Shown here: piece by piece, positions 3,847 to 13,574 of the stretch | Layout of the letters: each line of letters starts with the position of its first letter | Numbering within the stretch: position 1 is the first letter of the stretch | Notes under the pieces: model-generated | The model's database searches: none | Seen by the model: the letters and a program-made list of their open reading frames with translations, nothing else | Told to the model about the DNA's origin: nothing | Source: Nitrospirales bacterium | Lineage (GTDB): Bacteria; Nitrospirota; Nitrospiria; Nitrospirales; UBA8639 | DNA: 46,671 nucleotides | Assembly (NCBI GenBank): GCA_009377845.1 | Contig: WHTE01000011.1 | Coordinates: forward strand, 1-46,671 | Direction: 5' to 3' | Position numbers and translations under genes: made by a program

Positions 3847-4257
3847 ATGAATCGTCTCTGTATGGGAATCCTGAGCCTTGGTAGCTGCCTGGTCTTCTAT
3901 GGCTTGGCCTATTCCAACAACGAGGCCCGGGAAATCGCTTCTCAACCGGATATTGAGCAGGGACGAGACATCTACCGGATTCATTGCCAGGAATGTCATG
4001 GAGCGGAAGGTCGGGGTGATGGTCCACGAGCGCCTATGCTGGCTCCCCGTCCAGGAAATTTAGTGTCGGCCGCCACCTCCACGAAAACGGATGAAGAACT
4101 CCTCGACATTCTTGCCGGTGGGGTTCCCCGAACCGCCATGCGTGGTTGGAGTGATCAGTTGTCGAGTGATGAACGACGCAATGTGCTTGCCTACGTCCGG
4201 TCCCTCGTGCACTTTCAAGAACCTCCTTCCACCCCGCTTCCACCTCCCGAGCCGTAG
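3847..4257 (+). CDS. Exported monoheme class I cytochrome c
   Basis: A 136-residue protein with an N-terminal signal peptide (hydrophobic 5-22, probable cleavage near AYS/NNEA) and one heme-binding motif CQECH at 47-51. Met98 in PRTAMRGW is the likely second axial ligand, in the usual position for small class I cytochromes. The GAEGRGDGPRAP segment after the heme motif is typical of cytochromes that serve as periplasmic electron carriers or domains of oxidase complexes. The C-terminal PLPPPEP tail ends at a TAG that is the first three bases of the adjacent palindromic element, so the natural C-terminus may have been changed by that insertion. The partner redox enzyme is not in the window. Confidence 0.88.
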   Translation: MNRLCMGILSLGSCLVFYGLAYSNNEAREIASQPDIEQGRDIYRIHCQECHGAEGRGDGPRAPMLAPRPGNLVSAATSTKTDEELLDILAGGVPRTAMRGWSDQLSSDERRNVLAYVRSLVHFQEPPSTPLPPPEP

Positions 4258-4421
4258 GAGCCTGTCGCGCGTAGGAAGAATCGGCTGCAAACGTGTCTAA
4301 GCCGTCCATATTTCGCCGCTTTCTTGGACCATAGTCCCACTATGGGCCGGCGAAATCGTCACAATCTGGCCTCGCTCAGCCGCTTTTTCGCTCTCGATTC
4401 CCCAAGTCCGACAGGCTCCTA
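4255..4421. repeat. 167-bp palindromic MITE-like element between convergent genes
   Basis: Perfect 13-bp terminal inverted repeats TAGGAGCCTGTCG (4255-4267) and its complement (4409-4421) bound the element. Inside lie nested complementary arms: GAATCGGCTG (4278-4287) against CAGCCG (4377-4382) and CGATTC (4395-4400), TTTCGCCG (4311-4318) against CGGCGAAA (4348-4355), and a central hairpin CCATAGT-CCC-ACTATGG (4329-4345). The whole could fold into one long imperfect hairpin in DNA or RNA. It has no coding capacity. Its outermost three bases on each side are the TAG stop codons of the two convergent flanking genes. A non-autonomous transposable element or REP-like repeat is the likely nature. 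It may also work as a bidirectional terminator. No second copy was seen in this window. Confidence 0.75.
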
Positions 4422-5822
4422 GTCTTTTTTCGGCTTTACGCGGGTCTTGGATTGAGCCGGTGGCATCCGACTCAAGCTGTCGAAGTAGTGGACGAAGGCC
4501 TCTATACCGCCTGAGGCCTGCCCCCAATCGAAATATTCATTGGGTGCGTGGTACCCATGTTCAGGCAGACTGAGGCCCATAAACAGAATCGGGACCTTCC
4601 ATGCGCGTTGTAACACCGCAACGGCCCCGATAGATCCGCCTTCCCGTACAAACACCGGTCGACGTCCAAAGCCTTGTTTCACCGCATCTTGCAGCGCCTC
4701 CGCATAGGGGCCTTCGGAGATCCCCTGATAGGGTTCCAGTTCTCCCTCATTGAGCACCTCAATATCGGGGTTGCGTGCACGAAGGTGTTTTTTCAGGAGA
4801 CGGAAAATTTTTTGGGGATGTTGATTGGGAACCAACCGCATGCTGACCTTAAGTTCACCCCAGGCGGGCACAATGGTTTTGACTCCTGGTCCCATATGCC
4901 CGCCGGTTAACCCATGCACTTCAAAGGTGGGCGAGGCCCAGATCCGTTTGAGTAAATCTTTCGGATCGGACGTTCGGAGCGATCGCAGTTGATAGGCTTC
5001 TTTAAAGAGGCGAACCTGAAATCCTGAAGCCACAAAATCTTTCATTTCGGTACGGGTCGGCGGCACTACATCATCGTAGAATCCTGGTATTTTCACCCGG
5101 CCGGTTTTCGCGTCCAGGCAGGAGTAAGCGGCCTCACACAATTCGGCTAAGGGGTTGCGCGCCCCTCCGCCCGTGAGTCCTGAATGAATGTCGGTTTCTC
5201 CTGTTCGAAGTACTAACCGGGCGGCTAACAACCCGCGAAGGCCACAGGAGAGAGCCGGGCGATTCTTTGCCACCCAAATCGTGTCGGATACCAGCACCGA
5301 ATCGGAGGGGGGGACGGTTTTTCGGTTCTGGAGCACCTCGAAAAAGTGAGGACTACCAATTTCTTCTTCCAATTCCCAGAGGACCCGAATGTTGAGGGGA
5401 ATGCCGGCTTCTCTCGCAAATCTGGCAGCAAAGAGGGCGGTTAACGCGGGTCCTTTATCGTCCGTCGCTCCACGGCCACAGTACCGTTCGCCATCTTTAT
5501 GAAAAGCAAAGGGAGGCTGACGCCATTCCGGTTCCTTAGCGGGTTGGACGTCCAGATGATTGTAAATGGTGAGGCTGGGGTGCTGTCGGCCGGCGACCCA
5601 CTCCCCGGAAATGCTGGGATATCCGCTGGTCTTCACAATGGAGGCCCTGGCTCCGAATTGTTCCAGGTACTGAACCGCCAATTGTGCCATCCGGTGCATA
5701 TCGGGAGCGTGAGCAGGGTCTGAACTCACTGATGGCACTTCCACCATCTGCCCCAACAGGTCTTCAAAGGTGGCGCGGTGATCGTGAATATAGGTGCGTA
5801 ATTGGGGATCAGCGTAACTCAT
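4419..5822 (-). CDS. M20 family metallopeptidase (dipeptidase/ArgE-DapE-like)
   Basis: A 467-residue cytosolic zinc peptidase of the M20 family, which includes dipeptidases, ArgE, DapE and CPG2. Metal-binding and catalytic motifs are visible: NHLDVQP (His89, Asp91), GRGATDDKG (Asp121/122) and ELEEEIG (about 150-156), with a dimerisation region in the middle (HSGLTGGGARNPL) and a late HMGPGVK/PEHGYHAPNE region holding the last histidine ligand. The overall pattern, with the long linker and dimerisation domain, resembles the general dipeptidase subgroup rather than DapE. Substrate cannot be told. The TAG stop is part of the terminal repeat of the neighbouring palindromic element, so the last residues (VKPKKD) may be insertion-derived. 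The next gene upstream on this strand, the M50 protease, ends 114 bp away. Confidence 0.9.
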   Translation of the reverse strand: MSYADPQLRTYIHDHRATFEDLLGQMVEVPSVSSDPAHAPDMHRMAQLAVQYLEQFGARASIVKTSGYPSISGEWVAGRQHPSLTIYNHLDVQPAKEPEWRQPPFAFHKDGERYCGRGATDDKGPALTALFAARFAREAGIPLNIRVLWELEEEIGSPHFFEVLQNRKTVPPSDSVLVSDTIWVAKNRPALSCGLRGLLAARLVLRTGETDIHSGLTGGGARNPLAELCEAAYSCLDAKTGRVKIPGFYDDVVPPTRTEMKDFVASGFQVRLFKEAYQLRSLRTSDPKDLLKRIWASPTFEVHGLTGGHMGPGVKTIVPAWGELKVSMRLVPNQHPQKIFRLLKKHLRARNPDIEVLNEGELEPYQGISEGPYAEALQDAVKQGFGRRPVFVREGGSIGAVAVLQRAWKVPILFMGLSLPEHGYHAPNEYFDWGQASGGIEAFVHYFDSLSRMPPAQSKTRVKPKKD

Positions 5823-12807: not shown

Positions 12808-13574
12808 TTACCCCGCTTGTTTGAAAAAAAGTGGAAATATCTTTATCCATGACGGTACTCCCATCAGACATTCTTGTTGGAAGGGAGGAAGCCAATGGAA
12901 AAACTATATTTTGTGAATTTGCGAAAGCTGAAGATGAACTGTGGCTTTCAGAAAGAATGCATTGAGCAAATCTGTTGCCAATCTTCTGGCCATGAAGAAC
13001 CAACGGGAGGGAAAAGAGATTTGACGATTGAATCAGTGGATTCAGTTTAACGAATACAAAAAACCTGAAGGGAGAGGTGAGTAAGGCAGTCGGCAAAATT
13101 GGACTTAGGACGGAAGTGTCTGCCCATCGACCACCGAGGCATTCAAGCTGTTCGCCCTGATCGATCGGTGATCTGAAAATGGTTCAGATGTTGTATCGAA
13201 ACTAAGCGGTTGATGGAAAATTTCGATGATGTCGAGACTATGGAAGAGGTTTTCGTGATTCGTCGATGAAGGTGGTGGGAACTGCTACTGGTGTGTGAAA
13301 TCGCCCGAAAGGTTTTTAAATATGTCTGTATCGGAATCCTGTTGCCGGGGGAAAAGTTCTTACATTTAAAGAAGGGTGTCTTCGACCCGTGGAGGCGAAG
13401 CGCAGTGATTTGGAGTTTGGAATTGCTTCTGCCTGAGTAGCTCAAGAATTGGATGCCCTCAATATTCTTCTGCTCGATCTCGACCAACTCGTTCGGGGCA
13501 AATAAACGGTTCTGGCCGGTTTTTCTTTTTAGAAAACAGACAATTTTGATTTCGCCACTAAGCCTCCCCTTCGT
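12808..13574. other. Degenerate region with a probable gene remnant
   Basis: About 770 bp without an intact gene. On the plus strand a short frame begins at ATG 12893 after a good GGGAGG, encoding about 50 residues without known similarity. Between about 13230 and 13503, translated pieces in different frames read LLVCEIARKVFKYVCIGILL and, after a shift and one internal TGA, LEFGIASA and ELDALNILLLDLDQLVRGK before a TAA at 13501-13503. This looks like the eroded end of a real protein, vaguely like the C-termini of DUF4388-type regulators, but the assignment is weak. The rest shows nothing recognisable. Confidence 0.35.

Follow-up and report, generated by a model that had tools for sequence, protein, structure and literature searches.

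A MITE with IS1182-type ends has very probably entered the TA of a TTAG that two convergent genes shared as overlapping stop codons, and both encoded proteins kept their ends. The element lies at positions 4255-4421 of the 46,671-nt Nitrospirales contig analysed here (WHTE01000011.1; the whole stretch is referred to as the window), between a cytochrome c gene and an M20-family peptidase gene. The original prediction held that the element's ends supply both stop codons and that it could act as a stop-codon donor, changing C-termini of host proteins; at the window locus a donor role is contradicted by element-free relatives, and stop-preserving insertion replaces the stop-donor mechanism.

Element architecture and the ancestral insertion site

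The features of the locus are as follows.

3847..4257, forward strand: cytochrome c (cbb3 subunit III-like) gene, 136 aa, with its TAG stop (4255-4257) at the left end of the element; Pfam Cytochrome_CBB3/Cytochrom_C
4255..4421, no strand: MITE counted with the duplicated TA on either side, 167 bp; multi-copy, and almost every copy is bounded by TA left and right
4257..4419, no strand: element proper (GGAGCC...GGCTCC) if the target duplication is TA, 163 bp; left base C/T, right base G, TA on both sides; empty sites of relatives read T-TA-G
4255..4256, forward strand: left target TA, letters 1-2 of the cytochrome stop
4255..4267, forward strand: left terminal inverted repeat TAGGAGCCTGTCG; the family consensus continues GACTTAGG, from which the window copy has diverged to CGCGTAGG
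4310..4318, forward strand: left inner arm ATTTCGCCG
4329..4345, no strand: central palindrome CCATAG-TCCCA-CTATGG, with an ATAG...CTAT core nearly invariant across phyla
4348..4356, forward strand: right inner arm CGGCGAAAT
4409..4421, reverse strand: right terminal inverted repeat TAGGAGCCTGTCG, which continues GACTTGGGG
4420..4421, reverse strand: right target TA, letters 1-2 of the M20 stop
4419..5822, reverse strand: M20-family peptidase gene, 467 aa, with its TAG stop (4421-4419) at the right end of the element; Pfam Peptidase_M20

The element reads TAGGAGCCTGTCG...CGACAGGCTCCTA and is palindromic over its full 167 bp, with terminal inverted repeats that are perfect over 13 bp in the window copy and span ~20 bp in the family consensus. 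Its 167 nt fold into one long hairpin (-63.3 kcal/mol, z = -3.9; 0 of 200 shuffles equally stable). Repeats and fold energy together confirm the predicted palindrome with TAG-starting 13-bp ends, nested inner arms and pairing along the whole length, and the ORFs bear out that the outer TAGs are the in-frame stops of both genes. Stops occur in all frames of the family consensus within 14 codons of each end, marking it as non-coding, and Rfam covariance models gave no match to the element up to E = 5.

In seven element-free genomes of the genus (L105-L111), the cytochrome TAG and the M20 TAA overlap as TTAG, and both proteins end, without the element, at residues homologous to the ends of the window's proteins, which is the outcome that the original prediction itself had set against a donor role. 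Compared with the M20 protein of Nitrospira sp. RCB, the window's protein shows 67% identity over 276 residues, as would fit a host in Nitrospirota. At two further loci (L112, L113) TTAG likewise provides the M20 stop, but only a short open frame runs into the TAG. In G009, the closest relative, the ancestral TTAG is gone: the site contains no TAG and both genes end elsewhere, so that the order of events is drawn from the other relatives.

We propose an ancestral TTAG in which the stops of the two convergent genes overlapped, TAG on the forward and TAA on the reverse strand. Insertion into its TA, which the transposase would duplicate, would have produced T-TA-[GGAGCC...GGCTCC]-TA-G, and since the element starts with G on both strands, the cytochrome and M20 genes would each again read TA plus G, that is TAG, so that both proteins would keep their ends. 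Because the TA is duplicated target sequence, the element itself would contribute just the G that closes each TAG, and the sole stop change would be from TAA to TAG in the M20 gene. The base before the left TA is G in the window and T in the element-free relatives; a T-to-G change would therefore have come later, and would be silent, turning the proline codon CCT into CCG.

The reverse course, in which neither gene had its present stop before the element arrived within or past it and both proteins acquired new C-termini from the insertion, is very unlikely. Both present stops do use one base of the element, the consensus offers stops in every frame close to its ends, and if a G already preceded the TA at insertion, the element-free M20 frame would read ~13 codons further; however, in the seven relatives the stops overlap and the two genes end at homologous residues, and at two other sites the stop likewise predates the insertion, as seen from empty sites in G009 (ATTGTC-TAG; copy in L008) and G013 (CTC-TAG; copy in L012). 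Other relatives have TAA at these two sites. A stop-donor effect is possible for the 7 of 81 copies whose insertion was classed as coding. One insertion common to two genomes (L033 and L046) is a candidate for a real case of this kind, the left gene now ending at the element's TAG where it would otherwise run on for 11 codons, though the right end is degenerate.

Copies, target site and enrichment at stop codons

With ~20 near-full-length copies in the host genome and copies in 15 of the 20 other genomes of the genus, the element is not a chance palindrome, and the genome search suggested with the original prediction of a multi-copy, MITE-like element bears that prediction out. None of 39 genomes outside the genus yielded a copy at the sensitivity of that search. 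As in a MITE, the target is duplicated, with TA on both sides and empty sites at three loci.

Merging insertions with shared flanks reduced 81 distinct insertions in the genus to 72 independent ones, where the TA was flanked as C-TA-G in 48 cases, as T-TA-G in 13 and otherwise in 11, with no consensus in the flanks beyond C-TA-G. The right junction of T-TA-G insertions, CTCC-TA-G, favours a 2-bp TA duplication; in C-TA-G targets a 4-bp CTAG duplication around a 161-bp element fits equally, only TTAG and other unlike targets favouring TA, and IS1182 elements with 4-bp duplications are on record, such as ISPse1 (PMC3281130). Read by element orientation, T-TA-G targets outnumbered C-TA-A targets (13 vs 3), an imbalance not expected of a symmetric TA target. 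In one copy (L020:1127-1591; G000:C25 ~12998-13464) the central loop is split by an insert of ~295 bp, apparently another repeat, that ends near TTCAACAGCCC. A second MITE family of the genus (in G016 and G002; L128:2058-2224, L131:2480-2646, L132 ~457-622 and L133 ~2018-2184) matches the first in both its ends (TAGGAGCCTGTCCGAGATTAG) and its central ATAG...CTAT hairpin.

Gene ends are favoured by insertions, as the original prediction had conjectured. Genes of the genus were called with a home-made hexamer caller, and background CTAGs were taken from the host genome only, excluding MITE ends. The 48 C-TA-G insertions comprised 17 on a pre-existing in-frame stop, 29 at other non-coding sites and 2 in coding sequence, whereas background CTAGs comprised 32, 207 and 318, respectively, giving an odds ratio of 3.8 for stop versus other non-coding CTAGs (P = 4e-4) that was stable across gene-score cut-offs. 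An independent multi-phylum set of same-end elements, taken among the matches listed in the end-sequence scan described below and classified by a simple ORF rule against the CTAGs of the same loci, gave a similar picture (12:18 vs 8:58, odds ratio 4.8, P = 0.003). The approximately fourfold enrichment at stop CTAGs may reflect either insertion preference or better survival.

CTAG is ~fivefold depleted in the host genome (576 seen versus 3034 expected from composition, 778 kb sampled) and already holds TAG on both strands, which makes a harmless landing on a stop codon a common outcome. With TAG on both strands of the target, TA duplication and a terminal G, a targeted stop stays a stop on either strand, even when two genes share it. 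This is a simple route by which a transposable element can do no harm to genes at insertion.

Ends shared with IS1182 elements across phyla

Genome contigs were scanned for the end sequence, and the counts and taxa given here refer to the matches listed. Among these, the ends occur in Gammaproteobacteria, Betaproteobacteria, Desulfobacterota-like bacteria, Planctomycetes, Nitrospirae and others, and paired ends at CTAG bound elements whose lengths vary but cluster clearly at 164-169 bp. Elements of 1452-1651 bp at three loci in other phyla (L280, L283 and L319) are bounded by TAGGAG[C/T/G]C[T/C]GTC-type ends and encode transposases scoring above the NCBIfam IS1182 cut-off, so that the ends match full IS1182 elements as those of an IS1182-related MITE should; L280 and L283 are located in CTAG. 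Two further loci (L323 and L338) have up to ~18-20 bp of end sequence (TAGGAGCCTGTCGGACTTA) in common with the MITE, and a 328-aa ORF of L323 matches IS1182 below the cut-off. These ends suggest mobilisation by an IS1182-family transposase. Elements of 83 bp with the same ends at CTAG were also seen in Myxococcales and other genomes (L282, L330, L358 and L366).

An IS630/RUP-type MITE with a TA target would likewise duplicate TA, and CTAG is a known IS630 preference. We nevertheless regard this identity as extremely unlikely: DDE_3 matches occur in 11 of the 21 genomes of the genus, yet none of the 24 DDE_3 loci is flanked by MITE ends, no IS630 element with matching ends was found among these genomes, and the full elements that do have MITE ends encode IS1182 transposases. 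One DDE_3 fossil with a single end nearby (L095) is degenerate.

Neither the host genome nor the rest of the genus yielded an autonomous partner with the MITE's ends, although these are draft assemblies and may have missed one. Among full IS1182 relatives, just one with similar ends was seen in the genus, an intact-looking IS1182-family element (L380:1391-3028; G016:C58), and its ends, TATGAGCCTGTTGC/TAAGAGCCTGTTGC, differ from the MITE's. IS4/IS5-type transposases (PF01609, PF13340) were rejected as partners for lack of matching ends, the sole exception being the G016 IS1182 element with its different ends, and single ends in L135-L138, L144 and L145, considered as possible full elements, enclosed no transposase. 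Lack of a partner in the same genome does not disqualify a MITE, since partner-less MITE-like elements are on record (PMC3852290).

The nearest relatives of the genus MITE among the matches listed (L308, L361 and L317; 78-82% identity, L308 and L317 being on a Sulfuricella contig) lie outside the phylum of the genus, which suggests horizontal movement of the family. Literature searches returned no match for the terminal sequence TAGGAGCCTGTC and nothing related for Nitrospira together with MITE.

A foldback conserved across phyla but not in individual copies

RNAalifold was applied to an alignment of 28 elements, each 164-167 bp long: the window element, one member of the second genus family and 26 from other taxa. 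It returned a single full-length foldback of 57 pairs, 41 of which had at least one compensatory double change. Pairing was intact in 90.2% of cells, a percentage biased towards the foldback because the structure was derived from the same alignment, and 319 cells were changed on both sides versus 105.5 +/- 8.2 in shuffles, with slid controls all far lower. These double changes were numerous and spread over all helices. Within the genus (74 copies), by contrast, 426 cells were broken by a one-sided change and 15 were compensated, and singleton changes were equally frequent at paired (93/136) and unpaired (19/31) sites. Compensation across phyla together with uncompensated decay of copies indicates that the fold is maintained along the mobile lineage but not site by site. 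This favours a function in mobility over one in the host, for example termination. The fold is thus probably selected for mobility and not as a host terminator, and we infer that the foldback serves mobility and not a function at each site.

The original prediction of a mobile terminator is not sustained. A reading in which copies are kept at gene ends as terminators or mRNA stabilisers, their hairpin being useful to the host, could draw on the fourfold enrichment at stop CTAGs, the strength of the hairpin, the native TCTTTTTT after the right end of the window element and the suggestion that YPAL, a Yersinia repeat of similar size, affects upstream transcript stability (PMC2229807). However, the terminator scan found no terminator-like site, the element has no T-tract and the right flanks of most copies no T-run, copies lose pairing in place without compensation, and intergenic copies away from stops show no shift towards 3' over 5' positions (11:13 vs 96:95, at low power with only 24 copies); we therefore consider this reading improbable.

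Template-switch correction between the arms of the quasi-palindrome could keep the cross-phylum fold without selection on mobility, and the double changes are mostly from one Watson-Crick pair to another, with few G-U intermediates, which speaks for such correction. We think it unlikely, though deserving of some weight, as the 426 one-sided breaks in genus copies went uncorrected against only 15 compensated cells and at some positions the mismatch itself is conserved from phylum to phylum (columns 31-34 with 139-142). To return to selection for mobility, a fuller hypothesis can be offered tentatively, as a possibility we find somewhat doubtful: the cross-phylum family of ~166-bp foldbacks with IS1182 ends may have its fold selected for transposition by a transposase that needs a hairpin or cruciform, and its insertion may be directed to stop-codon CTAGs, sparing genes. 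Directed insertion at stops, if true, would be a new kind of safe-site choice. Setting compensation across phyla against decay within genomes tells selection for mobility apart from a function in the host, which is a standing problem in the study of bacterial palindromic repeats.

Comparison with known systems

RUP (IS630-Spn1) of S. pneumoniae is a small non-autonomous element at TA with an IS630 partner; the window element is likewise small, non-autonomous and at TA, but differs in its ends and in its putative partner type. REPINs, which are mobilised by RAYT, differ from the window element in ends, size and mobilising enzyme. They are nonetheless miniature mobile DNA, and compensatory changes preserve their hairpin, which has been taken as a sign of selection for mobility, as here (PMC3116915). 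YPAL/RU-2 of Yersinia resembles the window element in size (~167-168 bp) and in its long stem-loop, and may affect RNA stability of upstream genes (PMC2229807, PMC2759123). YPAL is described with termini lacking TA, internal inverted repeats and duplications of 3-26 bp, whereas the window element has terminal repeats and a duplicated TA, and identity with YPAL was rejected on these features (PMC2229807). IS1182 insertion sequences (NF033551) have the terminal sequence TAGGAGCCTGTC at CTAG in common with the MITE (L280 and L283), but are 1.4-1.7 kb long and encode a transposase, the MITE having just their ends.

By size and partner type, the closest known system is the set of IS1182-related MITEs of Methanosarcina acetivorans, 160 and 169 bp long, with ~25-bp inverted ends and ISMac2 as partner (PMC3852290). 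Like the window family with its putative IS1182-type partner, they combine this size and such inverted ends with an IS1182 partner that they resemble at their ends alone; unlike it, they are archaeal, and duplications of 4 and 0 bp are reported for them (PMC3852290). Analyses of fold conservation, stop codons and occurrence across phyla are given here for the window family, and none was found for the M. acetivorans MITEs in the available text of that report (PMC3852290). What is new in the window family relative to known MITEs is a foldback conserved across phyla together with enrichment at stop codons.
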